This document shows, in pieces, positions 3 through 18,649 of a stretch of DNA of 46,586 nucleotides; positions within the stretch are counted from its first letter, which is position 1, and the number at the start of each line of letters is the position of its first letter. Position numbers and translations under genes: made by a program. The stretch comes from a virus: the IMG/VR virus record IMGVR_UViG_3300042868_007148, positions 1 through 46,586 of that record; one strand, written 5' to 3'. Below the pieces are notes generated by a model. The model saw nothing but the letters and a program-made list of their open reading frames with translations, was not told where the DNA came from and searched no databases.

Positions 3-815
3 CCAGAACTTATTAAACGCGGTGTACGCAAAGATGTCAGTGTTATGTTCAGCGACCTTCGTGGCTTTACTCCTATCGGTGAACACTATGGCGATGATGT
101 AGCGGGACTTACAAAATACATGAACGGTTACATGGACAGCATCAGTCGTCCTATTATCGACAACAAGGGCATGGTTATCAAATATGTAGGTGATGCTTCA
201 ATGCACATACACGGTGCACCAATTGACGATGCTAATCACGCACATACTATCGTTAAAGTTGGACTTGAAATGTTAGATGCTGTTGATGAGTACACTAAAC
301 TAATGGAAGCACAAGGCTTACCTCCTGCCGCAATGGGTTGGGGTTGTAACACAGGTGTTGGCTTTATTGGCGAGATGGGATCAACAGACCGTCACGGTTA
401 TGATATTCTGGGCGATATGGTTTCAACTGCCGCACGACTAGAAGCACGTTGTAAAGCATATGGTGTGCTATGTATTATTGGTGCCGAAACATATAACCGT
501 ACCAAAGACGACTTCTTCTACTTGTTGTTAGATAATTTACAGCCTAAGGGCAAGACTGTAGCAGATTTGATCTATACAGTATTACGTACACGCGGCGAAG
601 ATTATTCTAAAGACAGAGAGCAACACGATAAGATGCATGCCTTGTACAAGGCTAAGAAATTTGATGAAGCAGCAGCCATGTGTAAAAAGCTAAAGGGTAA
701 CTTTGGTGGACAGCTGGACAAGTACTACAAAATATGGATTGAACGTTGTGAGTTTATGAAACAACAGGATCTAGGCGACAATTGGAACGGTGAATTTGTA
801 GCTCACGAAAAATAA
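3..815 (+). CDS. Class III adenylate/guanylate cyclase catalytic domain (5' end outside window)
   Basis: The reading frame is open from the window edge, so the N-terminus (probably a sensor or membrane part) is missing. The catalytic domain makes a cyclic nucleotide from a nucleoside triphosphate. The first metal-binding Asp lies in MFSDLRGFT and the second in YVGDAS. The Lys of IKYVGD and the Asp of YDILGD are the pair typical of ATP-specific enzymes, so cAMP is the likely product. One oddity: the segment usually reading VN.AARLE reads VSTAARLE, so the conserved transition-state Asn is Ser while the following Arg is kept. The last 80 residues are a charged, helical tail. Cyclases are unusual in phages; whether this copy is active cannot be told. 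Confidence 0.85.
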   Translation, partial: PELIKRGVRKDVSVMFSDLRGFTPIGEHYGDDVAGLTKYMNGYMDSISRPIIDNKGMVIKYVGDASMHIHGAPIDDANHAHTIVKVGLEMLDAVDEYTKLMEAQGLPPAAMGWGCNTGVGFIGEMGSTDRHGYDILGDMVSTAARLEARCKAYGVLCIIGAETYNRTKDDFFYLLLDNLQPKGKTVADLIYTVLRTRGEDYSKDREQHDKMHALYKAKKFDEAAAMCKKLKGNFGGQLDKYYKIWIERCEFMKQQDLGDNWNGEFVAHEK

Positions 816-818
816 ATA
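811..818 (+). promoter_or_regulatory. Possible T4-type late promoter box (AATAAATA)
   Basis: AATAAATA overlaps the end of the cyclase gene, 20 bases before the ATG at 839, with a GGAGG ribosome-binding site in between. T4-like phages use TATAAATA (NATAAATA in marine relatives) as the late -10 element. The short AT-rich motif could occur by chance, so this is tentative. Confidence 0.3.
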
Positions 819-838
819 CTTGTCAGGAGGGGCTAGCT

Positions 839-997
839 ATGAAACAGAAGAAGCTATTAAAGAAACTGTATCAGGCTTGTCTTTTACACGATAGTAAAGC
901 AATTTCCGAACTTCGTAAAACAGAGTTCGCCAAAATACTAAAACACCGCGCTGAAGGCAAACCATTTACAGGCAAATGGTCGATCGTAAGGATTTAG
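839..997 (+). CDS. Small basic protein of unknown function (52 aa)
   Basis: An ATG at 839 follows a strong AGGAGGGG ribosome-binding site and opens a 52-codon frame starting MKQKKLLKKLYQACLLHDS and ending KWSIVRI. The protein is Lys/Arg rich and looks helical, with no membrane segment or known motif. It fills most of the gap between the cyclase and the phosphoesterase. The good ribosome-binding site and ordinary protein-like composition support a real gene. I do not recognise the family. Confidence 0.65.
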   Translation: MKQKKLLKKLYQACLLHDSKAISELRKTEFAKILKHRAEGKPFTGKWSIVRI

Positions 998-1048
998 TTT
1001 GTAACAAAACTGCAATCTTAGTATCAACAAGCTGCGATAAATATTGCT

Positions 1049-1894
1049 ATGCAAAAGACTTATCGCAGCATTTTTATAAGTGATGTGCATCTAGGCACAC
1101 GTGACTGCAAAGCAGAGCAGCTCAATAACTTTCTCAAACATAATTCCTGTGACACCTTATATCTTGTAGGCGATATCATTGATGCCTGGAAGATACAACA
1201 GAACAAGTGGCGTTGGAAACAATCGCATACCAATGTGGTTAGACGTATAATGGGACATGCCAAGCGTGGTACCCGAGTTATCTATGTTGCCGGCAATCAT
1301 GATGAATTCCTACGTCCACTGATACCTCTAGGTATAGGTTTCGGGATGATAGAAGTGGTAAATCAAACCGAACACATAGGTGCCGATGGCAAGCACTATC
1401 TAGTCACACATGGCGATATATTCGATGGCATTACTAGACTAGCACCTTGGTTAAGTTTTTTAGGTGACAAGTCCTATGATTTTGTGCTGTATCTAAACAG
1501 TAAATTTAATTGGATACGTCATCGACTGGGATTTGGATATTGGAGTTTATCCAAATACCTCAAACACAAAGTAAAGAAAGCGGTGGACTTTATGTTTCAA
1601 TTTGAAAAGAACCTTGCCGACTACTGCGCGAAACGTGGATATGATGGAGTAATCTGCGGACACATACATCATGCAGAAATTAAAGATGTAAATGGAATAA
1701 TTTATATGAATGACGGTGACTGGGTGGAATCAATGACCGCTCTAGTAGAACATCATTCAGGCAAGTGGGAAATCATCACATGGACCAAGGAGCGAGATGA
1801 TGTGGATATTGATACTACTGGCAGTTCACGTAAACAACCCTCAAGACGTACCAGGAAGGATAATGATACAGTTTCAGACAGAGAAGGAATGTGA
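1049..1894 (+). CDS. LpxH-like calcineurin-type phosphoesterase (UDP-2,3-diacylglucosamine diphosphatase family)
   Basis: The 281-aa protein has the metal-site motifs of the calcineurin fold in order: FISDVHLG (residues 9-16), LVGDIIDAW (about 39-47), VAGNHDEF (about 80-87), THGD and a late CGHIHH. The spacing and the DIIDAWK segment match the LpxH-like family (COG2908), which cleaves UDP-2,3-diacylglucosamine in lipid A synthesis. Related bacterial genes often sit beside a GT4 glycosyltransferase, as here (1955-2959), which points to envelope lipid or glycan work in a Gram-negative host. The last 30 residues are a polar tail overlapped by the next gene. The true substrate is uncertain, since the family also includes general phosphoesterases. 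No clear ribosome-binding site precedes the ATG. Confidence 0.82.
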   Translation: MQKTYRSIFISDVHLGTRDCKAEQLNNFLKHNSCDTLYLVGDIIDAWKIQQNKWRWKQSHTNVVRRIMGHAKRGTRVIYVAGNHDEFLRPLIPLGIGFGMIEVVNQTEHIGADGKHYLVTHGDIFDGITRLAPWLSFLGDKSYDFVLYLNSKFNWIRHRLGFGYWSLSKYLKHKVKKAVDFMFQFEKNLADYCAKRGYDGVICGHIHHAEIKDVNGIIYMNDGDWVESMTALVEHHSGKWEIITWTKERDDVDIDTTGSSRKQPSRRTRKDNDTVSDREGM

Positions 1895-2003
1895 AGCAGC
1901 ACAATCCACAGTCACAAGTTGGTTGAAATTTGATTCATTTAAGGTAACTACAGAATGCGTAAGAAAATCCTCGTTATCACAGACAACACCAGAGATCAAA
2001 TAA
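1800..2003 (+). CDS. Small overlapping gene, probable signal or membrane N-terminus (67 aa)
   Basis: AAGGAG at 1787-1792 lies seven bases before this ATG (another ATG is at 1797). The product starts MWILILLAVHVN, a short hydrophobic segment, followed by DVPGRIMIQFQTEKECEAA and two further Cys-containing stretches. The pattern of hydrophobic start, then F.t..eCeaA and spaced Cys, recurs in the protein at 8246-8473 and is common in small phage proteins. The gene overlaps the 3' end of the phosphoesterase by 95 bases in another frame, and the glycosyltransferase start by 49. The strong ribosome-binding site and family-like composition argue for a real gene. Function unknown; possibly exported or periplasmic. 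Confidence 0.6.
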   Translation: MWILILLAVHVNNPQDVPGRIMIQFQTEKECEAAQSTVTSWLKFDSFKVTTECVRKSSLSQTTPEIK

Positions 2004-2959
2004 ATGGAGTGGTCACGACTTTCAAAAACATCCAAGGTCTGGCTTTTGATGACGGGTATAATATTGTTTATATTGATCCCGGGCAGTTCCCTCATTGTCC
2101 TGCTCCTGGTTATCCTGAAGTTAAACTTTCCTGGCCTTGGGGCATTGGTAAAAAGATCAAGGCGCTGGATCCGGATTATATTCATATCGCGACAGAAGGC
2201 CCGATCGGACTAGCTGCTCGTATTTGGTTAGATCTAAAAGGGTGGCGATACAACACTTCGTATCATACTAAATTTCCAGAATTTTTAAAGAAGATATATG
2301 GTATACCAGAACGATTAACCTATGGCTATGTACGTTGGTTTCATAAACATTCAGGCAGAGTTCTAACCACCACACAAACAATGGTCAATGATCTACGTGA
2401 TCACGGATTCGTTGGAGAAATTAAAAGCTGGACACGTGGTGTAGATCGTAAGAAATTTAGAAGTTCTATCAAAGGTAATATTGAATGCGATCGTCCCTTG
2501 TTGCTGTATGTAGGACGAATAAGCAAAGAAAAAAACATAGATGCATTCTGTGAATTAGATTTTCCAGGAGCCACTAAAATCGCAGTAGGTGATGGACCAT
2601 ATCTTGAAGAATTGAAACTCAAATATCCTGATGTAGATTTTCCGGGATCAAGACAGCCCGAAACACTGGCACATTATTATGCCAATGCTGATGTGTTTGT
2701 GTTCCCTAGTTGCACAGATACCTTTGGCATTGTGATCATAGAAAGTCTAGCCTGCGGTACTCCAGTGGCAGCGTATCCTGTGCCGGGTCCTATTGACATC
2801 TTAGAACAGGGTATCACTGGGCATATGAGTTGGAATCTAAGAGAAAGTGTTGATCGTTGTTTAGAATATTCAAGAACTCGAGTTGAACACGCCAGTCAGA
2901 AATGGACCTGGGATAACTGCTGGGAAATATTTAGAGATAATTTAGTTACTAAAAATTAA
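1955..2959 (+). CDS. GT4-family glycosyltransferase
   Basis: The 334-aa protein has the GT-B layout. The N-terminal half starts KKILVITDNTRDQINGVVTT (a glycine-rich acceptor-side loop). The C-terminal half carries LLYVGRISKEKNID and the donor-binding stretch TDTFGIVIIESLACGTPVAA, the equivalent of the EX7E motif with Asp in place of the first Glu. The length is usual for single-domain GT4 enzymes, which transfer mannose or related sugars from NDP-sugars to lipids or glycans. It follows the LpxH-like gene, so a role in changing host envelope glycolipid or a phage glycan is likely, but donor and acceptor are unknown. Its stop overlaps the stop of the convergent gene at 2956. Confidence 0.88.
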   Translation: MRKKILVITDNTRDQINGVVTTFKNIQGLAFDDGYNIVYIDPGQFPHCPAPGYPEVKLSWPWGIGKKIKALDPDYIHIATEGPIGLAARIWLDLKGWRYNTSYHTKFPEFLKKIYGIPERLTYGYVRWFHKHSGRVLTTTQTMVNDLRDHGFVGEIKSWTRGVDRKKFRSSIKGNIECDRPLLLYVGRISKEKNIDAFCELDFPGATKIAVGDGPYLEELKLKYPDVDFPGSRQPETLAHYYANADVFVFPSCTDTFGIVIIESLACGTPVAAYPVPGPIDILEQGITGHMSWNLRESVDRCLEYSRTRVEHASQKWTWDNCWEIFRDNLVTKN

Positions 2960-3255
2960 TCTTTCTTTTCTTTAGGTTGATTAATTATTTCATCTTGCTC
3001 TATGCGTTCTTTTTCAATGCTGGTACCACGTAGGTGCAGTGTGACATTGATCTTTTGATTCAATCTAATCAGATCATTATCTAACATACGAATACGATCA
3101 ATCAATGCGATTAATGTGGTGTTGGCATCTGACAATACTGGTTTGATTTCAGTTGTGGCCCATTTCCATACATAGTAAATGAGATATCCCATGCCGCCAG
3201 CAGCAACAATTGGAAAACCATATTTGTTAACTAAATCTACAACTTCTCCACCCAT
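2956..3255 (-). CDS. Small membrane-anchored coiled-coil protein (paralogue of the next gene)
   Basis: I chose the ATG at 3255 because AAGGAG stands just upstream. The 99-aa product starts MGGEVVDLVNKYGFPIVAAG, continues into a membrane segment (GMGYLIYYVWKWA), and then has a heptad-like region (TTLIALIDRIRMLDNDLIRL). This plan of a short amphipathic start, a GFPI motif, one membrane helix and a coiled coil resembles small phage YvrJ/holin-like proteins. The neighbour at 3266-3544 has the same plan. The two form a leftward operon diverging from the 3584 promoter. A lysis or membrane role is possible but unproven. Confidence 0.72.
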   Translation of the reverse strand: MGGEVVDLVNKYGFPIVAAGGMGYLIYYVWKWATTEIKPVLSDANTTLIALIDRIRMLDNDLIRLNQKINVTLHLRGTSIEKERIEQDEIINQPKEKKD

Positions 3256-3265
3256 TTTCTTCTCC

Positions 3266-3544
3266 TTAGTCGCGTCTTGCGTCTGACTGTTCTGCTCGAG
3301 CAATTCTATCCAAATCGGGTTCCAGTCCTAGTGCGTGGCTTACTTTAACATCTATGCGCATAACATCGTGATTCATGGTAGCCACACGTTTGTCTAGTGC
3401 GCCGATGATTCCAGCCATGCCTTTAACGCCCGACGTAACTCCTGCTAGAATGAATTTCAGTGTTAGGAAAACAAAGTAGCCTGCAGACATAGCTGCTGCG
3501 ATTGGAAACCCCAATTCTGCTACCAATTTGAAGAATTCGCCCAT
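3266..3544 (-). CDS. Small membrane-anchored protein (paralogue of 2956-3255)
   Basis: The ATG at 3544 is preceded by AGGAG, which fixes the start although the frame stays open further upstream. The 92-aa product starts MGEFFKLVAELGFPIAAAMS, has a membrane helix (SAGYFVFLTLKFILAGV), then a helix with MAGIIGALDKRVATMNHDV, where Leu/Ile/Val spacing suggests a coiled coil. The GFPI motif, order of parts and size match the next gene downstream (10 bases away), so the two look like a tandem duplication. Function unknown; YvrJ-like, holin-like or membrane-scaffold roles fit equally well. Confidence 0.72.
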   Translation of the reverse strand: MGEFFKLVAELGFPIAAAMSAGYFVFLTLKFILAGVTSGVKGMAGIIGALDKRVATMNHDVMRIDVKVSHALGLEPDLDRIARAEQSDARRD

Positions 3545-3583
3545 TTTTTTCGCTCCTGGTACAATATATGAGTATTTAACCAT

Positions 3584-3612
3584 TTGACAAGAATTTAATA
3601 TGATGCTATAAT
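3584..3612 (+). promoter_or_regulatory. Sigma70 promoter (TTGACA-17-TATAAT)
   Basis: TTGACA at 3584-3589 and TATAAT at 3607-3612 are both perfect consensus with a 17-base spacer. The bases before the -10 are TGATGC, shared with the promoter at 8186 and nearly with that at 14355. Transcription would start near 3619, just before the phosphoesterase gene at 3642, and probably serves the co-directional run to about 8180. Confidence 0.9.
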
Positions 3613-3641
3613 ATATACATATTATCCTCTTAGAAAGACCT

Positions 3642-4484
3642 ATGAAAATCCAACTTGTATCTGATCTACATCTTGAATTTGAAGATGTATGTATCAAAAA
3701 CGAATCAAACGCAGACGTGCTGATTCTGTCTGGCGATATACTTGTGGCAGATGATCTGCGTAATCAGCCTGCAGATCTTGCATGGAGTGATTTTCCGGAT
3801 GAAGGTCACGGTCGTGCCAAACGTGCTATGCGATACAGGGATTTTTTTCAACGTGTGAGTTTTCAATTTCCACATGTGATCTATGTCATGGGTAACCACG
3901 AACACTATCATGGTAAATTTGATCAAAGTGCAGATATCATTCGTGAAACATTGGGCTATCTCAATATTCATAATGTCTATCTGTTAGATCTCGAAACCAA
4001 AGAGATCGACGGAGTTCATTTTATTGGTGGAACCATGTGGACTGACTGTAACGACAGCGACCCTATGACTCTGTATCATCTTGAACATTGTATGAGTGAT
4101 TTTCGTGTGATTCGTATTGCTAAAGAAAACTTTAAAAAGTTTTTGCCAAAGCGCACGGTCATGGAGTTTACCAAAACACGAGATTATTTCAGAATTGTGA
4201 TTGACAATCTGCCCAAAGATGCTAAAGTAGTAGTATGCTCGCATCATGCACCTAGTCATTTGAGCATACATGAAATCTATAAAAATGACACACTAATGAA
4301 CGGTGGATACAGCACTGATATGAGTGAGTTTATTTTAGATAGGCCAGTGATCCAGGCATGGACACATGGTCATATGCACAACAACTTTGATTATCTAGTT
4401 GGTGACACTCGTGTGATGTGTAATCCCAAAGGATATCCTGGGGAAAATGATCAATTTGATTCTAACTTTACTTTTGAAATTTAA
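3642..4484 (+). CDS. Calcineurin-like metallophosphoesterase
   Basis: The 280-aa protein shows all metal-site motifs: LVSDLHLEF (residues 5-13), ILSGDI, VMGNHEHYHG, CSHHAPS and WTHGHMHN. Proteins of this size and motif set are frequent in large phages and bacteria and act as Mn/Fe-dependent phosphodiesterases or phosphatases. The substrate cannot be read from sequence. Candidates are cyclic nucleotides (a cyclase gene lies at the window start), nucleic acid ends or nucleotides. It is the first gene after the consensus promoter at 3584, so probably early and well expressed. The GroES gene follows nine bases downstream. Confidence 0.88.
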   Translation: MKIQLVSDLHLEFEDVCIKNESNADVLILSGDILVADDLRNQPADLAWSDFPDEGHGRAKRAMRYRDFFQRVSFQFPHVIYVMGNHEHYHGKFDQSADIIRETLGYLNIHNVYLLDLETKEIDGVHFIGGTMWTDCNDSDPMTLYHLEHCMSDFRVIRIAKENFKKFLPKRTVMEFTKTRDYFRIVIDNLPKDAKVVVCSHHAPSHLSIHEIYKNDTLMNGGYSTDMSEFILDRPVIQAWTHGHMHNNFDYLVGDTRVMCNPKGYPGENDQFDSNFTFEI

Positions 4485-5907: not shown

Positions 5908-5981
5908 ATAGCAAAGAAATTGTAGTACACTCATTTACTATGGGAGCAGTATCAGATAATGTTAGGTTTATGCAAAAATGA
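5898..5981 (+). pseudogene. Truncated paralogue of the 7455 gene (27 codons left)
   Basis: The frame MAIDSKEIVVHSFTMGAVSD ends after 27 codons. Its first 20 residues match the start of the protein at 7455 (ETRTIVVHEFSMGDVEDPD) at IVVH.F.MG.V.D. The remaining 60-odd residues are absent, and its TGA overlaps the ATG of the radical SAM gene at 5978. The simplest reading is that insertion of that gene removed the rest. The remnant may now serve as a short leader for translational coupling. Confidence 0.6.
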
Positions 5982-7324
5982 AAAATAATGAAACCCATTT
6001 AGAATATAAAAAAAGAGTCTTGGATATTCTATCACCTAGTTTTTGTGCGGCCAAGTGGTATAATGCTACTATATGGTTAGGGTCTGGTATGACTACATCT
6101 TGCCATCATCCTACTCCCCATTTCGTTTCCGTTCCATCAATCAAGGAAAACTACAAGTCTCTACACAACACTGTAGAAAAGAAAAGAGATCGAATGTTAA
6201 TGCAGATAGGAAAACGACCAGAAGGCTGCTCTTATTGTTGGAAAATAGAAGATCTTGGAGAAACTTTTGTAAGTGATCGTCCAGCTCAGAGTAAAAATTA
6301 CTCCGATCGGGATGTATTTGATGCATTCGAAACTGATAAAGAAAAAGATATTAATCTAAAAAAATTAGAAATTTCTTTTGATAAGACCTGCCAATTTGCC
6401 TGTGCATATTGCAGCCCAATATTTTCTAGCACATGGGTAAAAGATATAAAGAAAAACGGTCCTTACTTATCATTGGATTCTGATAAAAATGGACATTATG
6501 TTAGTTCGCATGAGACCAGTCAATTATATGATATTAATGAAGAAAATCCTTATATTGAAGCATTTTTCAAATGGTGGGAGAATGGACTGAGAGAATCATT
6601 ACAGGAGTTACGTATTACAGGAGGTGAACCATTAATGAGCGGTTATACCTGGAGATTATTAGATCGTATAAAAAATAGCAATGGAAAAAATCCATCTATT
6701 GCAATTAATACTAATCTTGGTGTAGATAAAAAAAATTTAGAACAATTATTATCTTATACTGACAAAGTAGATATTTCTATATATACCAGCAATGAAAGCT
6801 GTCAACAAGTTTCAGAATATATTAGAGATGGATTTAAATGGGAAAACTGGTACGATAATGTAGAATTTTTATTACAATCTAAAAGAATAAATCATTTAAA
6901 CATCATGTCAACTGTGAATGCTACCTGTCTTTTTTCTTTACCAGATTTCATAGAAGTTCTTGTAAATTTAAAAAGAATTTATGGAAAAAATCAATTATTT
7001 TTCGCATTAAATATACTTAGAACTCCGGAATTCCATTCTATTAACTCTTTGCCTCAAGATATCAAATCTTTTTATTCTAATCATATTTTTTCTAAATTAA
7101 AAAAATACCAAACAGAAGATTTATTAACCGGATCAGAAAAAAATCATATTTTAAGGTTGATAGAATTATTAAAAACTCCAGAGTCACCAAATCAAAAAAA
7201 ATTAGAAAAAGATTTTAAAAAATTCTATCAACAATATGATTTAAGAAGGAATAAATCATTTGAAAATACCTTTGATAGCACATTAATAAACTGGTATAAA
7301 AATATTAATATTGATGAGAACTGA
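5978..7324 (+). CDS. Radical SAM protein with N-terminal twitch-like Cys region (448 aa), inserted
   Basis: Radical SAM enzymes use a [4Fe-4S] cluster to split S-adenosylmethionine and start radical chemistry. The cluster motif is CQFACAYC (C138, C142, C145), followed by ITGGEPL at 213-219. An N-terminal Cys set (C23, C42, C84, C87) matches the N-terminal auxiliary-cluster (twitch) type seen four more times in this window. It lies 10 kb from the main island, alone among small genes. Its A-rich codons (many AAA, AAT, ATT) contrast with its neighbours, and the gene before it is truncated: signs of recent acquisition. The C-terminal 150 residues are Lys-rich and unlike the other copies. Substrate unknown, probably a peptide or small metabolite. 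Confidence 0.88.
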   Translation: MKNNETHLEYKKRVLDILSPSFCAAKWYNATIWLGSGMTTSCHHPTPHFVSVPSIKENYKSLHNTVEKKRDRMLMQIGKRPEGCSYCWKIEDLGETFVSDRPAQSKNYSDRDVFDAFETDKEKDINLKKLEISFDKTCQFACAYCSPIFSSTWVKDIKKNGPYLSLDSDKNGHYVSSHETSQLYDINEENPYIEAFFKWWENGLRESLQELRITGGEPLMSGYTWRLLDRIKNSNGKNPSIAINTNLGVDKKNLEQLLSYTDKVDISIYTSNESCQQVSEYIRDGFKWENWYDNVEFLLQSKRINHLNIMSTVNATCLFSLPDFIEVLVNLKRIYGKNQLFFALNILRTPEFHSINSLPQDIKSFYSNHIFSKLKKYQTEDLLTGSEKNHILRLIELLKTPESPNQKKLEKDFKKFYQQYDLRRNKSFENTFDSTLINWYKNINIDEN

Positions 7325-10438: not shown

Positions 10439-10523
10439 GCCCCGGTGGCGGAATTGGTAGACGCACTGGATTTAGGTTCCAGCGCCGTAAGGCGTGAGAG
10501 TTCGAGTCTCTCCTGGGGCACCA
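10439..10523 (+). tRNA. tRNA-Leu (anticodon UAG)
   Basis: Acceptor GCCCCGG pairs with CTGGGGC. The anticodon stem CTGGA/TCCAG encloses TTTAGGT, giving TAG. A long variable arm (CGCCGTAAGGCG) marks a class II tRNA. T arm GAGAG-TTCGAGT-CTCTC, and CCA is encoded. It reads CUA (and by wobble CUG) codons. Confidence 0.97.
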
Positions 10524-10529
10524 GCAATT

Positions 10530-10619
10530 GGAGAGTTGGCCGAGTGGTCGAAGGCAGCGGCTTGCTAAGCCGTCCTCCCAGCGATGGGAGCATAGGTTCG
10601 AATCCTATACTCTCCGCCA
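10530..10619 (+). tRNA. tRNA-Ser (anticodon GCU)
   Basis: Acceptor GGAGAGT pairs with ACTCTCC. The anticodon stem GCGGC/GCCGT encloses TTGCTAA, giving GCT for AGC/AGU codons. A long variable arm (CCTCCCAGCGATGGGAG) and an encoded CCA are present. It begins seven bases after tRNA-Leu, so they share a transcript. Confidence 0.97.
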
Positions 10620-10637
10620 ATTTAAAAGGAAAAATAT

Positions 10638-10817
10638 ATGGCAAGAACTAACAGTAACTTTAAATTAAGTAAGTCAACAAAACGTGGGTTAGCCTCAAGT
10701 AATTTTAAAACAGACGAAGAACGCAATCATTACAAAAAAATGATGATTCAAGCAGAACACGCAGCATCTATTCCGTTTCGCGCTCCTAAATCTCGGAACG
10801 AAGCTCCTAAGGAGTAA
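10638..10817 (+). CDS. Small basic hypothetical protein (59 aa)
   Basis: An AAAAGGA site precedes the ATG. The frame MARTNSNFKLSKSTKRGLAS continues NFKTDEERNHYKKMMIQAEH and ends APKSRNEAPKE. It is Lys/Arg/Asn rich with no aromatic core, so probably disordered or nucleic-acid or virion associated. The gene lies 18 bases after tRNA-Ser and three bases before the next gene, whose GGAG ribosome-binding site overlaps its last codons. Function unknown. Confidence 0.68.
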   Translation: MARTNSNFKLSKSTKRGLASSNFKTDEERNHYKKMMIQAEHAASIPFRAPKSRNEAPKE

Positions 10818-10820
10818 CCC

Positions 10821-11084
10821 ATGGCACACGAAGCAGGAAAAGGCAGTCGCCCTCGTCCTTTTAGTGTCAGCAAAGATGAGTTCGATAATAATTTTGAAAC
10901 TATATTCGGTAAAAAGAAAAAAGACATATTACCGGAATATGAGTTGAATAAGTCTACAGGCGAAGTCGAGAAGGTGTATCCTGAAAACATCCCTTTTCTC
11001 GAAGGTGAAGAAATGTGGGCACAGGAAGCCATAGACGAAGAACTGCGTAGACAAGAAATGAAAAAGGACGGGCTAGAAGAATGA
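10821..11084 (+). CDS. Conserved small phage protein (MAHEAGKG family, 87 aa)
   Basis: The start MAHEAGKGSRPRPFSVSKDE followed by FDNNFETIFGKKKKD is a pattern I know from many large phages: a basic start, then F..N...IFGKK. The role is unknown. The C-terminal half is strongly acidic (FLEGEEMWAQEAIDEELRRQ). A GGAG site at 10811-10814 precedes the ATG, and the gene overlaps the next by four bases. The protein may bind nucleic acid or act in early host takeover, but nothing in the sequence shows this. Confidence 0.75.
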   Translation: MAHEAGKGSRPRPFSVSKDEFDNNFETIFGKKKKDILPEYELNKSTGEVEKVYPENIPFLEGEEMWAQEAIDEELRRQEMKKDGLEE

Positions 11085-11275
11085 CACCTAGTGTTAAAAA
11101 TATGACAAAAGGAACCTGCGGATGCGGCCGTTCGCCCACAGGTGATTGCGTTGGTTGGCACGGATTGTCCGAAGAACAATATCAAGCAAAACAAGCAGAA
11201 TGGGACTTCGAACAATATAAAAAACAAGCTAGTGAATTGTGGAGTGATAGTTGCACATCGGGTCGTTCAGAATAA
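11081..11275 (+). CDS. Small Cys-rich protein, CGCGRSPTGDC motif (64 aa)
   Basis: The product has GTCGCGRSPTGDCVGWHGLS followed by EEQYQAKQAEWDFEQYKKQA. Three Cys and a His in a CxCxxxxxxxCxxWH arrangement suggest a small zinc or iron-sulphur site, loosely like CDGSH domains (CxCx..Cx..H). The family occurs in bacteria and phages with no assigned function. Translation may start at Met1 (overlap with the previous gene) or Met8 (MTKGTCGCG). A further Cys lies near the C-terminus (DSCTSGRS). Confidence 0.68.
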   Translation: MTPSVKNMTKGTCGCGRSPTGDCVGWHGLSEEQYQAKQAEWDFEQYKKQASELWSDSCTSGRSE

Positions 11276-11296
11276 TAATTTTAAAAGGATATTAAC

Positions 11297-11488
11297 ATGG
11301 CAAAAGGTTCTGGTGGTAAAAAGATTAGAGTAGCAAGTCCAATGCTAACAAAAAATGGCAAGGCAAGATTGGGGCCATTAAATTTAGAACAATTAAAAAC
11401 TATGCTTGAGAAATCGAGTAGGCCAAAAGACAAATCAAAAATTGTTAATCGAATTAAAGAATTAGAAAGTCGTAAAATAGTAGCGTAA
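11297..11488 (+). CDS. Small basic hypothetical protein (63 aa)
   Basis: AAAAGGA precedes the ATG. MAKGSGGKKIRVASPMLTKN continues RLGPLNLEQLKTMLEKSSRP and KDKSKIVNRIKELESRKIVA. A flexible basic start leads into a helical region with LNLEQLKTMLEKS..KDK..I.NRI, resembling short basic proteins seen in large phages. Nucleic-acid binding is plausible from charge alone. It lies eight bases before tRNA-Thr. Confidence 0.7.
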   Translation: MAKGSGGKKIRVASPMLTKNGKARLGPLNLEQLKTMLEKSSRPKDKSKIVNRIKELESRKIVA

Positions 11489-11495
11489 CGTTTAT

Positions 11496-11571
11496 GCCCT
11501 CTTAGCTCATTTGATAGAGCAACGCACTTGTAATGCGTAGGTGGTCAGTTCGAACCCGACAGAGGGCACCA
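11496..11571 (+). tRNA. tRNA-Thr (anticodon UGU)
   Basis: Acceptor GCCCTCT pairs with AGAGGGC. D arm GCTC/GAGC. The anticodon stem ACGCA/TGCGT encloses CTTGTAA, giving TGT. The T stem GTCAG/CCGAC has one A-C mismatch around TTCGAAC. CCA is encoded. Confidence 0.95.
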
Positions 11572-11588
11572 AAATATCCAAAAAAGGC

Positions 11589-11617
11589 TTGACACAGCGC
11601 AGGTTAGATAGTATAAT
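11589..11617 (+). promoter_or_regulatory. Sigma70 promoter upstream of the structured RNA and rpoZ
   Basis: TTGACA at 11589-11594 and TATAAT at 11612-11617, both perfect, 17 bases apart. The predicted start at about 11624 coincides with the first base of a perfect 8-bp GCAA hairpin (11625-11644), an arrangement that fits a stable RNA. Confidence 0.9.
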
Positions 11618-11624
11618 AAGTTTT

Positions 11625-11895
11625 GTTGTGTAGCAATACACAACCGGTGAAGTGAAGGGTAGATGAGGATAGACACAAGGTTTAGGACTTTTTATCCTAA
11701 TCCATACTTACAATCCAATTGAACATTGGACCGTGTTTATGTGATCCGACCCCCAACTGAATGTCATTTGTTAATCGGAAATATATAGACCTCTGTGTAT
11801 TGTAGTTTGCACATTGTCAAAGGAAGATTACAACCCTTCCGTTGTCTATTGTCCGGTCTATCGCTTGACCTTTCGCCGATCCGTTATTATAATAA
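11625..11895 (+). ncRNA. Structured RNA: long leader of rpoZ or independent ncRNA (unidentified)
   Basis: No gene is visible in the 333 bases between tRNA-Thr and rpoZ, but the stretch is rich in pairing. A perfect hairpin GTTGTGTA-GCAA-TACACAAC lies at 11625-11644. Nested stems pair GGGT 11657-11660 with ACCC 11749-11752, GGAT 11667-11670 with ATCC 11744-11747, and ACAC 11673-11676 with GTGT 11733-11736. These enclose two further hairpins, 11679-11687/11695-11703 (one mismatch) and 11714-11719/11725-11730 (perfect). A later hairpin pairs 11818-11826 with 11836-11844 (one mismatch). I see no tmRNA, RNase P, SRP or 6S signature. With no terminator before rpoZ, a regulatory leader is the first guess. 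Confidence 0.6.
11865..11893 (+). promoter_or_regulatory. Second promoter-like element immediately before rpoZ
   Basis: TTGACC at 11865-11870 and TATAAT at 11888-11893 are 17 bases apart. Transcription would start near 11900, leaving only about five bases before the ATG and cutting into the AAAGGAAG ribosome-binding site. It would therefore give a nearly leaderless rpoZ message that bypasses the structured RNA, or it is not used. Confidence 0.45.
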
Positions 11896-11904
11896 AGGAA
11901 GCAT

Positions 11905-12132
11905 ATGAAAGAAGCCAAGCAGACATCAGTAGAAGGTGCAGTTGAAAAGATTGGCAGCAGATTTGATTTGGTATTGGTAGCCTCTGAAAGAGCTAGAGAA
12001 ATCAAGCATGGTTCTACACCAAAGGTGCAGGGTGACAACGGTGCTGTGGTAACAGCACTAGAAGAAATCGAACAGGGGTTTTATACTAAAGAAGATTACT
12101 TAAAGAAAATTAGAAACAGGGAAATGAGATGA
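11905..12132 (+). CDS. rpoZ: RNA polymerase omega-subunit homologue
   Basis: The 75-aa protein matches bacterial RpoZ over its whole core: [20 protein letters not shown] (residues 9-28) followed by [13 protein letters not shown], then [15 protein letters not shown]. E. coli omega has the same V..[21 protein letters not shown] start and a TVIALREIEEG counterpart. Omega supports assembly of the beta' subunit and affects sigma choice. A phage copy could replace or compete with the host subunit to redirect transcription. The gene has AAAGGAAG before the ATG and overlaps the next gene by four bases. The acidic C-terminal extension of long omegas is absent. Upstream lies an unusual structured RNA. 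Confidence 0.88.
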   Translation: [75 protein letters not shown]

Positions 12133-12701
12133 ATATAACACTTCGCAGAGCCAACGCCGTGCAAAATGCAATCAATGATGCCATCCGTGGTATCAAGATT
12201 GAAACCAGCATCGAGATCAATGAGTTTCAGGATGTCACTGCCGAGCTTCAAGCAGCTAATGATCTGCTGTTGAACAATGATGCTCGCAGACAGAAACTGC
12301 TGTTGGCTTTGTACAACATTCGTGGTTTAGTAGGTACTGCTAATGCCAACAGCGGTATCGATCTAGCATTGGCCAAGGCAGCGTTCATTGACAAGCGTAT
12401 TGGTCAATTAAACGAATTAGCCGAAGCAAAATCAGTGACTAATATCGCTGTGTTGAACGGTAAGCTAGATAAGATCCGCAACCGCAAGGATGAAAGTCGT
12501 GCTAGCCTGTACGGTCGTGATGACACAGTTAGCACTGGTGTTATTGGTGCTGAGCAGATTACACAGGCTAAGATAGAGATTAGCAATCTCAAGAAGCAAA
12601 AGCAGAAACTAAATGACGAAGTGCTTGAGCTCAACATCAAAACTGAGATTCCACTTTCAGATGATGTTGTGACTACACTACAGACAGAGGGACTGCTTTA
12701 A
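12129..12701 (+). CDS. Coiled-coil hypothetical protein (190 aa)
   Basis: It starts MNITLRRANAVQNAINDAIR in an ATGA overlap with rpoZ. It is largely helical: an N-terminal region (EFQDVTAELQAANDLLLNND), a middle with LLALYNIRGLVGTANANSGI, and a coiled coil near the C-terminus (AKIEISNLKKQKQKLNDEVL). Only two Pro and two Trp-free ends are visible, fitting a rod-like protein. The start MN.TLRRA...Q is one I have seen in marine phage proteins without function. Coupling to rpoZ hints at a linked role in transcription, but that is a guess. Confidence 0.72.
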   Translation: MNITLRRANAVQNAINDAIRGIKIETSIEINEFQDVTAELQAANDLLLNNDARRQKLLLALYNIRGLVGTANANSGIDLALAKAAFIDKRIGQLNELAEAKSVTNIAVLNGKLDKIRNRKDESRASLYGRDDTVSTGVIGAEQITQAKIEISNLKKQKQKLNDEVLELNIKTEIPLSDDVVTTLQTEGLL

Positions 12702-12703
12702 AT

Positions 12704-12777
12704 GCGGGGTTAGTTTAATGGCAAAACCTCAGTTTTCCAAACTGAATTCGCGGGTTCGATTCCCGCACCCCGCTCCA
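12704..12777 (+). tRNA. tRNA-Gly (anticodon UCC)
   Basis: Acceptor GCGGGGT pairs with ACCCCGC. The anticodon stem TCAGT/ACTGA encloses TTTCCAA, giving TCC for GGA/GGG. T arm GCGGG-TTCGATT-CCCGC. Discriminator T, CCA encoded. It starts two bases after the preceding stop. Confidence 0.96.
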
Positions 12778-12797
12778 TGTATAAGTGAGGACATAGA

Positions 12798-13037
12798 TTG
12801 AATCTAACATTTTTTTTAAATTGGCGCGGTACTCGTTGGGAAATTCTTAAAGGATTTTCTAGAAAAATATCTACTAACTGGGCATGTGAATTCAATCTAT
12901 ATTCCACACACAGCTTTGTGATGATTGATGCTAGACTTCTGCCTCAAGGAGACCATCGTGGCATATTTGTCATGTTAGGTCTTTTAGGTTATGCATTAGA
13001 TTTTAACGTTTATGATACACGCCATGCTGGTAATTGA
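12798..13037 (+). CDS. Small phage-type hypothetical protein, TTG start (79 aa)
   Basis: The TTG at 12798 has AGTGAGG upstream and is the only sensible start. The product begins NLTFFLNWRGTRWEILKGF and has HSFVMIDARLLPQGDHRGIF and MLGLLGYALDFNVYDTRHAG at the end. The ending GL.GY.l.F.vYDtRH, with an aspartate-rich D..GDH in front, is typical of a phage family I cannot assign a function. It overlaps the following oxygenase gene by 14 bases. Confidence 0.7.
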   Translation: MNLTFFLNWRGTRWEILKGFSRKISTNWACEFNLYSTHSFVMIDARLLPQGDHRGIFVMLGLLGYALDFNVYDTRHAGN

Positions 13038-13596
13038 TCAAAACGAAACCTTTCGTAAGTTTGATTTCAGTTCAGTAATAACAGCACAGGATAATCAACA
13101 GGCCTGTGCCATAATACGGAAAATTATTGCAGATGGTGATTATTTTACTAATTCGCCAAAGTTTCAAACCAAAGAAAATATATTCAAACGCACCGAACCT
13201 ATATGGGTCAAGTACCGTATGAGTTTTCTGTTTAGTGTGTTCATGTATCTAGGTCGAGAAGTCAAGGTATCCGAAATGATGGCATGGAGTTTTATGACCA
13301 ATCTCGAGAGCGTCGAAAATCGTGAAAAATATTGGCATCATCACTGGCATCCAAAAAATCCCAATAACAGCATGCTCAGCGGAGTGCTGTATCTACATAT
13401 CCCTGAGGATGTCAAAGATCGAGATTATTGTGGAACAGAGATGGCTCCAAACGGCCCCGACGGTGACGGAAAATTCTTTGTGAGACCCAGCGATTACACA
13501 TGGTTGATATATCCTTCCAAACAATGGCATAGACCTGGCATCGTACAGAGTAACAAATATAGGTTCGTGCTGGCAGCAGATGTAGAATATCAATAA
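13024..13596 (+). CDS. 2OG-Fe(II) oxygenase-like protein (190 aa)
   Basis: The middle reads YWHHHWHPKNPNNSMLSGVL, then YLHIPEDV, F.VRPSDYTWLIYPSKQWH and NKYRFVLAADVEY. A His cluster, an SGV.YL strand, a late P..qWH and a final R.vLa...eY fit the putative 2OG-Fe(II) oxygenase family (TIGR02466 type) common in marine phages; metal ligands would be among H105-H109 plus H169, with R180 for 2OG. Start: the ATG at 13024; 13012 is also possible. Its stop overlaps the SGNH gene start by one base (TAATG), so the two may act in one pathway. Substrate unknown. Confidence 0.75.
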   Translation: MLVIDQNETFRKFDFSSVITAQDNQQACAIIRKIIADGDYFTNSPKFQTKENIFKRTEPIWVKYRMSFLFSVFMYLGREVKVSEMMAWSFMTNLESVENREKYWHHHWHPKNPNNSMLSGVLYLHIPEDVKDRDYCGTEMAPNGPDGDGKFFVRPSDYTWLIYPSKQWHRPGIVQSNKYRFVLAADVEYQ

Positions 13597-14270
13597 TGCC
13601 TAGAATAGTTATTATCGGTGACAGTTGGGGTGTACCAAATTATCCTCCGGCTAAATCGTTGACTCATATCGGGGATCCTCCAGAAACTCATACAGAGTTT
13701 CTACTACGCAACTTAGGGTATGATGTTGTAAATTTTTCAAAGAACGGGCGAGGAAATATTAACTCTATATCTGAGGCGTTGATCTATTCTAGAGAAAATA
13801 CAGTAGACTGGATATTTTGGTTTCATACAGAGATGCTTCGAGATTCGTATCTAGTAAACTTAGAATCTTACACTATTAACGAGCTTACTGAAACCCTCGC
13901 AGAGATTATATATAAAAAATTTGAAGAATTGAGAATATTGTCCGGAGCGAAGACTATAGTAGTTGGAGCACAAGCTCCTATCTTAGAATCATTTCACAAA
14001 TATACATTTGCCGATAATATTAAAAAAGACTGGCGCGGTGAATTGCTAGGTATCGACTTTCCAACAATTCACTCACTATGCACTCCACACCTGATAGAAA
14101 GTGATAGATGTGTAAATTCAATGTCGGAAAAGATGAGGTTACTAGATCATCACGAGATGATTTTAAACTCTATGAAAATTTCCGATCTTTTCCCGGACAA
14201 TGCCCATCCTGGAAAACAATGCCATGCTGATCTCACAACATGGATAGACGGCATAATAAGACATAATTAA
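13596..14270 (+). CDS. SGNH/GDSL-type hydrolase-like protein (224 aa)
   Basis: The start PRIVIIGDSWGVPN carries the GDS(W) block I nucleophile, VNFSKNGRGN matches the glycine/asparagine oxyanion blocks, and PDNAHPGKQCH near the C-terminus supplies the D..H pair of block V. SGNH enzymes are esterases or acetylesterases; phage copies often act on surface polysaccharides. The length is usual for a single domain. It is translationally coupled to the 2OG-like gene before it and followed by tRNA-Arg. The extra His/Cys residues near the C-terminus are atypical, so the exact reaction is uncertain. Confidence 0.75.
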   Translation: MPRIVIIGDSWGVPNYPPAKSLTHIGDPPETHTEFLLRNLGYDVVNFSKNGRGNINSISEALIYSRENTVDWIFWFHTEMLRDSYLVNLESYTINELTETLAEIIYKKFEELRILSGAKTIVVGAQAPILESFHKYTFADNIKKDWRGELLGIDFPTIHSLCTPHLIESDRCVNSMSEKMRLLDHHEMILNSMKISDLFPDNAHPGKQCHADLTTWIDGIIRHN

Positions 14271-14273
14271 TTT

Positions 14274-14348
14274 CCGGCGTTCGTTCAACGGATAGGACAA
14301 GGCTCTTCTAAAGCCTTAATGGGGGTTCGATTCTCTCACGCCGGGCCA
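14274..14348 (+). tRNA. tRNA-Arg (anticodon UCU)
   Basis: Acceptor CCGGCGT pairs perfectly with ACGCCGG; the first base is C, which is uncommon. D arm GTTC/GGAC. The anticodon stem AGGCT/AGCCT encloses CTTCTAA, giving TCT for AGA/AGG. The T stem GGGGG/CTCTC uses two G-U pairs. CCA is encoded. It starts three bases after the SGNH stop. Confidence 0.95.
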
Positions 14349-15650: not shown

Positions 15651-16793
15651 ATGCCCTTACAGATTCGCAGAGGCACCGAAGCACAACGCATAGCAATGGT
15701 TCCAAAACTTGCACAAGGCGAGCTATTATGGATTACAGATGCTGCAAAATTATACGTAGGTGATGGAACTACCGCATCAGAGTTTCTAGTACCAGTTACA
15801 GGATTTACTGCAGAAGATGCTCAAGATGCAGCAGCTTCGCTGTTCACTACTTCACCAACACATGCAGGTATTTCATTTGCCTATGACGATATAACAGGTA
15901 AATTAACGGCGACCGTAAATTTGTCAGACTATGACGGTGTAATCACAGCATCAGCATTTAAAGGCACGGTTGTGGCTGATGATTCGTCTATTTTAGTTGA
16001 TGGTGTGGCGGGTGTTCTCAAAGGAACTCTTGTAGGATCTCTAACTGGTAATGTAACAGGTAATGTAACAGGTAATGTAATAGGTAATGTAACAGGTGAC
16101 ATAACCGGTAATACAACCGGATATCACACTGGTGACGTAAAAGGTTCTGTGTTTGCAGATGATTCTACAATACTAGTCGATGCTGTTGATGGAGTGTTAA
16201 GAGGAAATTTAATAGGAAATTTAACAGGGTCAGTGAACGGCGATATAGCTACAGGTGCTATTTTATTAAATACCACATTAGCAGAAGGTGGACCCGCGGC
16301 AGCAAATCGAGGAATGCTAATCATCACAGAAGGCTCTTTATCGGATGATTATGATTTATTTTCAATTGAATCATTTCATACAGATGCAGCCTCTCCAGCA
16401 GGTGCATCATTTACTAGAGGAAGAGGTACATCAACAAGCCCTGCAGTTGCAGCAACTAATGATCCGTTATTTGGATTTATTTTCTCGGCGGTTGGTGCAG
16501 GGTTGACTGGAAAGCTATCATCTAGTATCATAGCAAGTTTAGATGGTGCATTACTCAGTGGAAATACTATAGCTCCTGGTAAAATTGAAATTTCCACTAC
16601 AGATGCGGCAGGCGCTTTAGTTGTAGGATTATCGATTGATAAAGAACAACTTGTTGGATTTTCTAGTAGCAATGTAGTGACTGCTAATAGCGGATCTGGT
16701 ACCGCTGATGTCACAGCAGGTGTTGCTACCTATCTAAAAATTAAAGTTGGCAGTACAGAATACGCAATACCATTGTACGGACTTGTTCCCTAA
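15651..16793 (+). CDS. Tail-fibre / tropism-determinant-like structural protein (380 aa)
   Basis: The start MPLQIRRGTEAQRIAMVPKL and then AQGELLWITDAAKLYVGDGT match the N-terminal module (Mtd_N-like) that begins many phage tail-fibre and baseplate-associated receptor proteins. A repeat section with GNVTG units follows at about residues 133-156, as in beta-helical fibre shafts. The C-terminal part is low in charge and rich in Ala, Gly, Ser and Thr, with no Cys, as expected for a trimeric fibre. It is preceded by a possible late promoter. The enzyme island starts six bases after its stop on the other strand, so host range and island may be linked. Confidence 0.82.
   Translation: MPLQIRRGTEAQRIAMVPKLAQGELLWITDAAKLYVGDGTTASEFLVPVTGFTAEDAQDAAASLFTTSPTHAGISFAYDDITGKLTATVNLSDYDGVITASAFKGTVVADDSSILVDGVAGVLKGTLVGSLTGNVTGNVTGNVIGNVTGDITGNTTGYHTGDVKGSVFADDSTILVDAVDGVLRGNLIGNLTGSVNGDIATGAILLNTTLAEGGPAAANRGMLIITEGSLSDDYDLFSIESFHTDAASPAGASFTRGRGTSTSPAVAATNDPLFGFIFSAVGAGLTGKLSSSIIASLDGALLSGNTIAPGKIEISTTDAAGALVVGLSIDKEQLVGFSSSNVVTANSGSGTADVTAGVATYLKIKVGSTEYAIPLYGLVP
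16047..16118 (+). repeat. In-frame tandem repeat, six 12-base units
   Basis: Six consecutive units of GGTAATGTAACA, with the last two diverged, encode GNVT/GNVI/GDIT/GNTT. Each unit is four codons, so copy-number change keeps the frame and lengthens or shortens the fibre shaft. Confidence 0.9.
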
Positions 16794-16798
16794 TATTA

Positions 16799-18649
16799 CT
16801 ATCTTGGGCTGATGCGGCGTTTGCTGAAACCCATTTTATGTTTGTAATGTAACTTTTCATCAAAATCTCTACGATCTGTCCAATCTATGATATTAGACAG
16901 ATTGTAGTATTGTCTGTCTTTAGTTAACGGCGCGATTCCATCAATTGCTTCAGGTATGTTATGCATAAGAGAAATCACAGTGTCACTTGTAGTATCAAAG
17001 TCTACCGTATATAAATCTTGAAGTAGTATAATGTCATCAACTACAGTTGTGGGTAATTCTTTTAATAATTCCCTAGCCCATATGTTTATTTCACTCTGTA
17101 TCTTTTTCTTGTTAGCATGAAACAATTTGTGCTGGCTATTAACTACAATATCGTCATTGCGCTGAAATCCGGTTAGCATGGTAGGATCAACATATAAGAA
17201 TTTTTCAAAATTGTCTTTATGATTTAGATAATAAGGTAATAACACATTATTAGTTTTTATGTAATTCCATAATGTGTCGTACACTTCTCTATAAGATTTA
17301 TTACATAATTTATCAGCAGCTTTTGCTATGATCTGCGTCCATCCGTACGAATGATAATTTACTATTAACCAACCATACATCCAACTTAAAATTAAATCTG
17401 ACTTAGGCATGTATTTTGTACCAACTACATAATTGTGTTTTTCGGGTATCGCCGAATGCTGATCCTGTTCAACGATTTCAAAATGAAATAGTGTAAACTG
17501 GTGTTCAGTTGCTTGTTTGGCAAGTTCGCTGTTTCTTAGTAGTTCAAGGACAAAAATCTCAATATTACCATGGCATCCATATGATACTGCCTTACACAGT
17601 CCCTCGGCCCAGGAATCAAAGGTTTCTTCTGGCAGTCCAAGAATAAACTCGGTATAATAACTCAAATTATTTGTATTACACAACTCGTATATTTCACCCA
17701 GCTTTGATATTTCCATATTCTTTCGGTTTATAGACGACAGTGTTTTGTCATTAAGACTTTGCACACTTAATGTTAGACCTCGATTTAATCCAACTTCATC
17801 GAGTATATTAATTAACTCAATAACTTGATCAGTTTGATTCTTGTACCAAGTTATATTTACGGTATGTGGGAATCCGGTACGTTTTTTATTTTCTACAAGT
17901 CTTTCAAGGATAATCTTATCACGTTCGTAAAATACTCCAAAGTTAGCATCAGCAAAGTATAGATACTCGATGCCGTTATCACTGATCCAATCAAGTTCTA
18001 AAAATACTTTTTCAAGATTAAACTTTTTAATTTTGTTCTGAGTTAAACTGCCCCAATCACAAAAAGTACAACCAAACGGGCATCCACGATTAGTCTCAAT
18101 TGTTGACGCCCATCGTGTGTTGGGATTATCTTTAATTATTTTATTAAATACCGGATTATCATACGGGCTTGGTAACTGTAGTTCTTCAATTCGTTTTGAT
18201 GAATAAATCTTTTTAATTTTACCGCTAGTGGCATAATCAGTTAACAATTGATAAAAACTTAATTCGCCTTCGTTAACTACTACACTATTAACACACTTGT
18301 TCCTAGCTAAAAAATCGATGCCGTTTTCATCTACTTGCGGCCCACCGAATACTATTAAACAATTAGGATATTTTTCTTTAACAGCCTTAGCTACTTCAAG
18401 ATTATAATTCTCATTCCATATATACGTGCTGAATACACACATAATAGGATTATCTAAACTAGCAATAACATCTTCAACTGCATCTCGGCGAAATATGCAA
18501 TCTTTAATCTCGTATTGTTGATTAATATGATCAAACTGTGCAGAATACGCCCATACACTTGCTATACTATACGGTAACCATTGGCTAACAAATTGGCCCT
18601 TACCGCCTTGATAATTAGGCTGAAATAAGTATAAATTAAATTTTGACAT
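16799..18649 (-). CDS. B12-binding-type radical SAM protein (616 aa)
   Basis: The N-terminal 150 residues form a Rossmann-like cobalamin-binding module (LYLFQPNYQGG, then MCVFSTYIWNENYNLEVAKA and LIVFGGPQVDENG). The radical SAM motif is NRGCPFGCTFCDWGS with C190, C194 and C197. Then come IEYLYFADANFG and TEFILGLPEETFDSW, as in class B methylthio/methyltransferase-like enzymes. Such proteins often methylate unreactive carbons or rearrange skeletons using cobalamin. The C-terminal 220 residues are unfamiliar. It is the last gene of block A and overlaps the 2OG-like gene before it by 14 bases. Its substrate may be the product of the sugar/guanidino enzymes upstream. Confidence 0.87.
   Translation of the reverse strand: MSKFNLYLFQPNYQGGKGQFVSQWLPYSIASVWAYSAQFDHINQQYEIKDCIFRRDAVEDVIASLDNPIMCVFSTYIWNENYNLEVAKAVKEKYPNCLIVFGGPQVDENGIDFLARNKCVNSVVVNEGELSFYQLLTDYATSGKIKKIYSSKRIEELQLPSPYDNPVFNKIIKDNPNTRWASTIETNRGCPFGCTFCDWGSLTQNKIKKFNLEKVFLELDWISDNGIEYLYFADANFGVFYERDKIILERLVENKKRTGFPHTVNITWYKNQTDQVIELINILDEVGLNRGLTLSVQSLNDKTLSSINRKNMEISKLGEIYELCNTNNLSYYTEFILGLPEETFDSWAEGLCKAVSYGCHGNIEIFVLELLRNSELAKQATEHQFTLFHFEIVEQDQHSAIPEKHNYVVGTKYMPKSDLILSWMYGWLIVNYHSYGWTQIIAKAADKLCNKSYREVYDTLWNYIKTNNVLLPYYLNHKDNFEKFLYVDPTMLTGFQRNDDIVVNSQHKLFHANKKKIQSEINIWARELLKELPTTVVDDIILLQDLYTVDFDTTSDTVISLMHNIPEAIDGIAPLTKDRQYYNLSNIIDWTDRRDFDEKLHYKHKMGFSKRRISPR

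Follow-up and report, generated by a model that had tools for sequence, protein, structure and literature searches.

A structured RNA of about 265 nt lies between a tRNA gene and rpoZ in the 46.6 kb IMG/VR virus record analysed here (the whole stretch is called the window; its tRNAs are found at 10439-14348), and it belongs to an RNA family that was previously uncatalogued, is absent from Rfam 15, and has been kept by selection in more than 100 large freshwater-phage sequences. It is a conserved RNA that either has its own promoter or stands directly behind a tRNA. From 5' to 3' it runs through P1, the outer stem, P2a, an AGA bulge, P2b, P4, P5, P6 with its apical loop, a single strand, and P7, and then back into P2, in the following setting:

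11496 to 11571, + strand: tRNA-Thr(TGT), found by ARAGORN, the usual upstream neighbour of the ncRNA
11589 to 11617, + strand: promoter 1, TTGACA-17-TATAAT (TTGACA at 11589-11594, TATAAT at 11612-11617), 12/12 match
11620 to 11884 (~265 nt), + strand: ncRNA, 5' end placed from promoter spacing and 3' end from conservation
11625 to 11644, + strand: P1, 5' hairpin with GCAA loop, covaries
11645-11647 with 11881-11883, + strand: outer stem, 96.6% paired
11652-11660 with 11868-11876, + strand: P2a, closing helix, 99.6% paired, both-sided changes in 5 pairs
11661 to 11663, + strand: AGA bulge between P2a and P2b, conserved, AGA also in CcrColossus and CcrPW
11664-11674 with 11856-11867, + strand: P2b, closing helix, 11863 bulged, 99.2% paired
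11679 to 11703, + strand: P4 hairpin, covarying pairs 11684/11699 and 11686/11697
11714 to 11730, + strand: P5 hairpin, holds the five strongest covarying column pairs in the alignment
11735-11742 with 11783-11790 and 11746-11749 with 11775-11778, + strand: P6, helices 7 and 8 of the consensus structure
11761 to 11770, + strand: heptads A1-A2 in the P6 apical loop, AUG-UCAU-UUG
11793 to 11816, + strand: heptads B1-B4, CUG-UGUA-UUG-UAGU-UUG-CACA-UUG
11822 to 11840, + strand: P7, variable hairpin within the heptad 4-5 spacer, missing from some members
11842 to 11854, + strand: heptads C1-C2 and conserved UCC, UUG-UCUA-UUG-UCC
11865 to 11893, + strand: promoter 2, TTGACC-17-TATAAT, 11/12 match, -35 within the 3' strand of P2
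11905 to 12132, + strand: rpoZ (RNA polymerase omega), PF01192 E 3e-13, optional neighbour
12129 to 12701, + strand: MNITLR gene, 190 aa, conserved companion of the ncRNA

The initial annotation of this region had described a strong promoter followed by a highly paired RNA with no gene ahead of rpoZ, and our results agree with it: the promoter matches the TTGACA-17-TATAAT consensus at 12/12 positions, the plus strand of the RNA region contains no ORF of at least 50 aa (the sole minus-strand ORF of that size touching the region, 11817-12038, lies mostly inside rpoZ), and 11620-11904 folds at -85.3 kcal/mol versus -62.7 +/- 5.4 for shuffles (z -4.2; 0/200 shuffles as good). The perfect 8-bp GCAA hairpin that it listed is present at 11625-11632/11637-11644. 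The nested stems are also real, showing compensatory changes, but they enclose four hairpins (P4, P5, P6, and P7) rather than the two originally described. The closing helix, made up of P2a, the conserved AGA bulge, and P2b (11664-11674/11856-11867), differs slightly from the single-sequence MFE.

Relatives lacking compensatory base changes had been named as the outcome that would speak against an RNA; instead, such changes are present. For an alignment of 59 sequences with a mean pairwise identity of 66% (alignment A1), RNAalifold predicted 42 pairs, 25 of them kept through changes on both sides. In the final 45-pair structure, 96.7% of cells across these sequences are canonical, compared to 26-44% pairing in slid controls, and both-sided changes affect 27 pairs and 327 cells versus 16 and 112 in shuffles (0/500). 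An unguided mutual-information scan placed predicted structural pairs at ranks 1-6 of 34,202 column pairs. We would like to note that the shuffles leave relatedness in, whereas the slid controls and the unguided ranking are free of that weakness. Even in the most conserved helix, the pair 11670/11860 is found as U-A in 73 sequences, A-U in 11, and C-G in 2, with a single U-U mismatch; the motif CUUGACC is invariant (59/59 sequences). The kept pairs, the both-sided changes, and the fact that the top covarying column pairs were all predicted thus establish a genuine RNA family, and together with the absence of Rfam matches they strongly support the initial suggestion of a new ncRNA family. That the region is instead a chance fold of AT-rich intergenic DNA has next to no probability, as the only point in its favour is the general warning that single-sequence folds mislead, and it is contradicted by covariation, by conservation in the large records searched, and by conservation of the promoter.

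G-U cells outnumber A-C cells by 393 to 21 (140 to 20 without the mostly-G-U pairs), so the plus strand is the functional RNA; the same counts ruled out a minus-strand RNA. A peptide reading of the region was also rejected, since indel lengths are not divisible by three and no frame is conserved. The covariance model scores the window at 271 bits, with the window belonging to the model's own training set, and seven sequences outside the model (L206, L207, L208, L209, L214, L216, and L220) matched with E values of 3e-28 to 2e-61.

No Rfam family matched the RNA region, either at gathering score or at E up to 10, and the only matches in the window were tRNAs; tmRNA, RNase P RNA, riboswitches, and other Rfam families were rejected as candidates on this basis. 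DNA similarity to INPHARED genomes yielded no credible relative of the window's RNA. A protein search with rpoZ retrieved L001, a close relative that carries the RNA, and three records in which rpoZ lies directly behind a tRNA without it (L002-L004). Exact-pattern scans of IMG/VR with conserved words retrieved 22, 18, 50, 97, 99, and 114 stretches in successive scans, and a profile search of the collected stretches gave 101 distinct core sequences. The relatives lie on large phage contigs, the longest measuring 364 kb, and a single locus may hold as many as 32 tRNA genes; a covariance-model search of nine large records found the RNA once in each with a high score. One 6.9-kb contig (L082) has two copies, at 3564-3772 and 6093-6301 on the minus strand; this is the sole such case and could be an assembly effect. 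A pattern match in GTDB (L057) was attributed to chance, as the profile did not confirm it. Our search of the open-access literature found no description of this RNA and no ncRNAs of PA5oct or CcrColossus.

Among the 74 distinct loci with enough upstream sequence, promoter 1 matches the consensus at 9/12 positions or better in 66 and at 12/12 in 48. The second promoter-like pair noted near rpoZ, thought to bypass the RNA, is also found (TTGACC-17-TATAAT, 11865-11893), and across the family it is not a chance occurrence: a perfect TATAAT follows the conserved TTGACC by 16-18 nt in 17/84 distinct loci versus 0.5 expected from shuffled flanks. Part of the family therefore has a second promoter whose -35 is supplied by the 3' strand of P2, and in those 17 loci transcripts from it would bypass the RNA. 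Judging from the spacing in the window, transcripts from promoter 2 would start so near rpoZ that the Shine-Dalgarno sequence would be partly lost. Seven relatives (L019, L065, L090, L104, L107, L108, and L116) have no promoter 1, and their RNA begins directly at the 3' end of a tRNA; in some relatives the CCA end of the tRNA is immediately 5' of the RNA. In four of the seven (L019, L090, L108, and L116), TTGACC is followed after 29-39 nt by a new TTGACA-17-TATA(A/C)T promoter. This start against a tRNA, combined with a new promoter behind the RNA, suggests that the tRNA-fused RNA is released by tRNA processing and would be independent of the next mRNA.

An anatomical feature absent from the initial annotation is the heptad array. 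Between P6 and the closing helix lies a single strand with six [Y]UG-N4 heptads, with two more in the P6 loop, and the array consensus is CUG-N4-YUG-N4-UUG-N4-UUG, then P7, then YUG-N4-UUG-UCC. Information content averages 1.96 bits at the UG positions versus 0.92 in the spacers, and 12/12 UG positions are at least 97% conserved versus 1/16 spacer positions. The spacers take 10 to 20 different sequences, yet they are 4 nt long in nearly every member, with one spacer departing from this length in each of L067 and L093. In the members without P7 (L059, L065, L096, L208, L209, and L216), exactly 4 nt separate heptads 4 and 5, and all six heptads stand in unbroken register. Pairing between heptad spacers and a B1/B2 hairpin, considered by eye, was rejected for lack of conservation across groups.

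Cultured phages of Caulobacter and Brevundimonas appear to carry the same RNA, without annotation in their genomes. In CcrColossus, a 284-nt gap annotated as empty (201299-201582) lies behind gp272, an MNITLR profile match (E 1.5e-16), and folds at z -5.0. A 5' hairpin, a UUG-UUGU-UUG loop, and a closing helix GUGGAAGCGG/CCGCUUCCAC with AGA after it are present in the gap, along with the array UUG-UGGG-UUG-CGCG-UUG-UCCG-UUG-UAGC-UUG-CCCU-UUG-UCC. Kikimora and Gurke have the array CUG-CACU-GUG-CACU-GUG-CCGU-GUG-AACU-GUG-CUCU-GUG, and in Domovoi, Kabachok, and Bambus five heptads keep the register and a sixth follows after a 5-nt spacer. The whole genomes of CcrColossus, CcrPW, and Kikimora each have a single six-unit NUG array, which lies beside MNITLR; runs this long were seen in 0, 2, and 2 of 1000 shuffles for CcrColossus, Kikimora, and Domovoi, respectively. 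P2a varies by paired changes among the CcrColossus, Domovoi, and Kikimora groups. These phages share the 5' hairpin, the closing helix, the NUG array, and the MNITLR neighbour with the freshwater group. The freshwater-group covariance model was not significant here: CcrColossus matched at the right place with E 0.54, the best CcrPW match (E 0.089) was misregistered, and a whole-genome search of CcrColossus, Domovoi, and Kikimora gave no match. The case for homology accordingly rests on architecture and synteny, which make it very probable that these RNAs and the freshwater-group RNA are homologous, the alternative being convergence, with the same array arising beside the same gene. The RNA in these phages sits downstream of MNITLR and ahead of another gene; a conserved gene of ~82 aa (gp273 in CcrColossus) was seen 3' of the RNA in those examined (L225 3411-3659, L228 2584-2829, and L229 2363-2608).

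The initial annotation offered, as an alternative to a new family, a leader controlling rpoZ. This is not supported for the family, as rpoZ is the next gene in 37 of 80 classifiable distinct loci and MNITLR in the other 43, the RNA lies downstream of both rpoZ and MNITLR in L108, and L002-L004 have rpoZ without the RNA. The order in L108 is rpoZ, MNITLR, tRNA-Met, RNA, promoter, so that gene order changes and the RNA and MNITLR stay together. The RNA is present at 78/78 MNITLR loci with enough upstream sequence, among the best 80 of 120 protein matches, and MNITLR was not seen in the fragmentary records of L002-L004. Several further observations were made at these loci. L108 has ~30 tRNA genes within 4 kb (51-4143), with the RNA between tRNA-Met and further tRNAs. 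Among 20 large records of the RNA-bearing group, 10 encode bS21, and L019, L056, L027, and L087 encode bS21 and/or cold-shock domain proteins along with large tRNA sets, several also having an RNA polymerase omega subunit. The number of radical SAM proteins encoded in the window itself is unusually high; several of them contain SPASM or B12-binding domains, and a sugar epimerase is encoded as well (5978-7321, 16799-18649, 25627-26583, 28588-29745, 35273-40885, and 45311-46291). At 15651-16793, the window also encodes a protein whose N-terminal domain is of the Major tropism determinant type (Mtd_N).

The AlphaFold model of MNITLR is a confident helical fold (pLDDT 89) with no PDB match at E 0.001. 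Its structural homologues are viral, CcrColossus among them, and Foldseek matches were also retrieved in Vibrio Vp_R1, Erwinia SNUABM_47, and giant viruses. When the L108 protein was used as a tblastn query, matches came from PA5oct, Paride, and Brevundimonas jumbo phages; for the PA5oct homologue, detection by ESI-MS/MS is recorded. Three results count against a role of MNITLR as protein partner of the RNA: the fold search gave no match suggesting RNA binding, the pI of 5.7-8.8 is not clearly basic, and PA5oct and Paride have an MNITLR homologue in genomes where no heptad RNA was found. The lone heptad-pattern match in PA5oct was rejected as a simple repeat whose control also rings.

We lean towards a stand-alone, trans-acting structured RNA, a scaffold or sponge binding about six protein copies, for which MNITLR is the leading candidate. 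The closing helix holds the multi-branch core. The folded RNA around the array would fix the ends of the strand, and the heptads would be identical docking sites, at a 7-nt pitch, where an RNA-binding protein would sit in about six copies or as a hexamer; the RNA would then work as the scaffold or sponge of an RNP, for which translation or RNAP takeover, tRNA handling, and assembly are possible roles. Identical protein subunits lined up along one strand would favour just such a pattern, in which the pitch is constant and the spacers are free to vary. Linkage across lineages makes the adjacent phage MNITLR protein the best partner candidate, the alternative being a host single-strand binder, and the RNA appears separable from the next gene, since it is found upstream of rpoZ or MNITLR as well as downstream of both or of MNITLR. 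A more specific and more tentative proposal is that the RNA may scaffold an undescribed RNP in which the six UG-heptads and the two in the loop seat a ring or row of MNITLR, as a module common to jumbo phages of freshwater bacteria, Caulobacter, and Brevundimonas. By this proposal, joint action of the RNA and the protein would explain why the module survived changes in gene order.

The arrangement of the main group invites a different reading, in which the RNA is a cis leader, i.e., the 5' UTR of an rpoZ/MNITLR operon that controls translation, with the heptads binding a repressor as in TRAP-regulated leaders, or that acts as a put/EAR-like terminator read-through element. The RNA is directly ahead of rpoZ or MNITLR in 80/80 classifiable main-group loci, usually only 15-25 nt from the start codon, and the strong promoter stands 5' of it in 66/74 loci. 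Nevertheless, we consider this reading doubtful for the family: it possibly fits the main group, but not L108 and L122, where the RNA is downstream of rpoZ and MNITLR and behind tRNA-Met, nor the tandem tRNA-RNA forms with a new promoter after the RNA (L019, L090, L108, and L116), nor the Caulobacter and Brevundimonas arrangement, and promoter 2 bypasses the RNA in 17/84 loci. The L108 order, the Caulobacter and Brevundimonas order, and the promoters behind the RNA mean that the same gene is not always downstream, as it would be for a cis leader or a put or EAR element. A sponge for a host single-strand RNA-binding protein, e.g., a cold-shock protein, is improbable. The 7-nt pitch with U-rich ends is consistent with it, CspB has been reported to bind heptamer direct repeats with one protein per heptamer (PMC4679880), and a cold-shock domain is encoded in 4/20 large records of the group, but the weak specificity of such proteins would not demand invariant UG and exact 4-nt spacers. 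No cold-shock domain was found in the complete Caulobacter and Brevundimonas phages that were searched, which led us to reject a phage-encoded cold-shock protein as universal partner, although a host protein could serve. The rpoZ neighbour, adjacent in 37/80 loci, and the invariant, -35-like CUUGACC (59/59) could suggest a 6S-like RNA binding RNA polymerase; this we regard as highly improbable, given that no Rfam 6S match was found at E up to 10, that the RNA has a multi-branch core and a single-stranded array rather than a rod with a central bubble, and that rpoZ is optional and occurs without the RNA in L002-L004.

A large amount of jumbo-phage sequence is unexplained, and the structured RNAs of these phages have scarcely been mapped. 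The RNA described here is widespread and deeply conserved, and its array obeys a simple rule, in which NUG recurs six times at 7-nt intervals and the spacers are free. Caulobacter is a model organism, and the apparent presence of the unannotated RNA in its cultured phages makes a partner search, a deletion, and a structure directly feasible. If MNITLR is the partner, one experiment would open both the RNA and a protein family found in jumbo phages of several genera.

Among known systems, GOLLD and ROOL are phage ncRNAs found near tRNA islands, sometimes directly behind a tRNA (PMC12286853). The new RNA resembles them as a structured phage ncRNA beside tRNA arrays and sometimes right behind a tRNA; in contrast, they are several hundred nt long with another fold, whereas the new RNA is ~265 nt with a heptad array and a link to MNITLR, and is found in a few jumbo-phage lineages. 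It shares the phage tRNA-island location of the GOLLD/ROOL/OLE group but matches no Rfam model. It resembles 6S RNA in that some loci place it close to an RNA polymerase gene, and differs from that rod with a large central bubble in its architecture and in having no Rfam match. In TRAP leader RNAs, NAG triplets recur with short spacers, an arrangement that suits a multimeric protein. Like them, the new RNA has many identical single-stranded triplets at constant pitch, but these are NUG with 4-nt spacers and a 7-nt pitch, as six plus two units inside a folded RNA. The sponge RNAs CsrB and RsmZ have GGA motifs in hairpin loops with free spacing; the new RNA likewise repeats candidate protein-binding sites within one molecule, but as UG triplets in one strand with fixed spacing. 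A 7-nt period is also seen in the TAACTGA heptamer direct repeats of Beggiatoaceae, proposed as S1, Csp, or Csr binding sites (PMC4679880), but those repeats are perfect and lie upstream of many genes, whereas the new RNA has variable spacers within one folded RNA and occurs once per large record searched.
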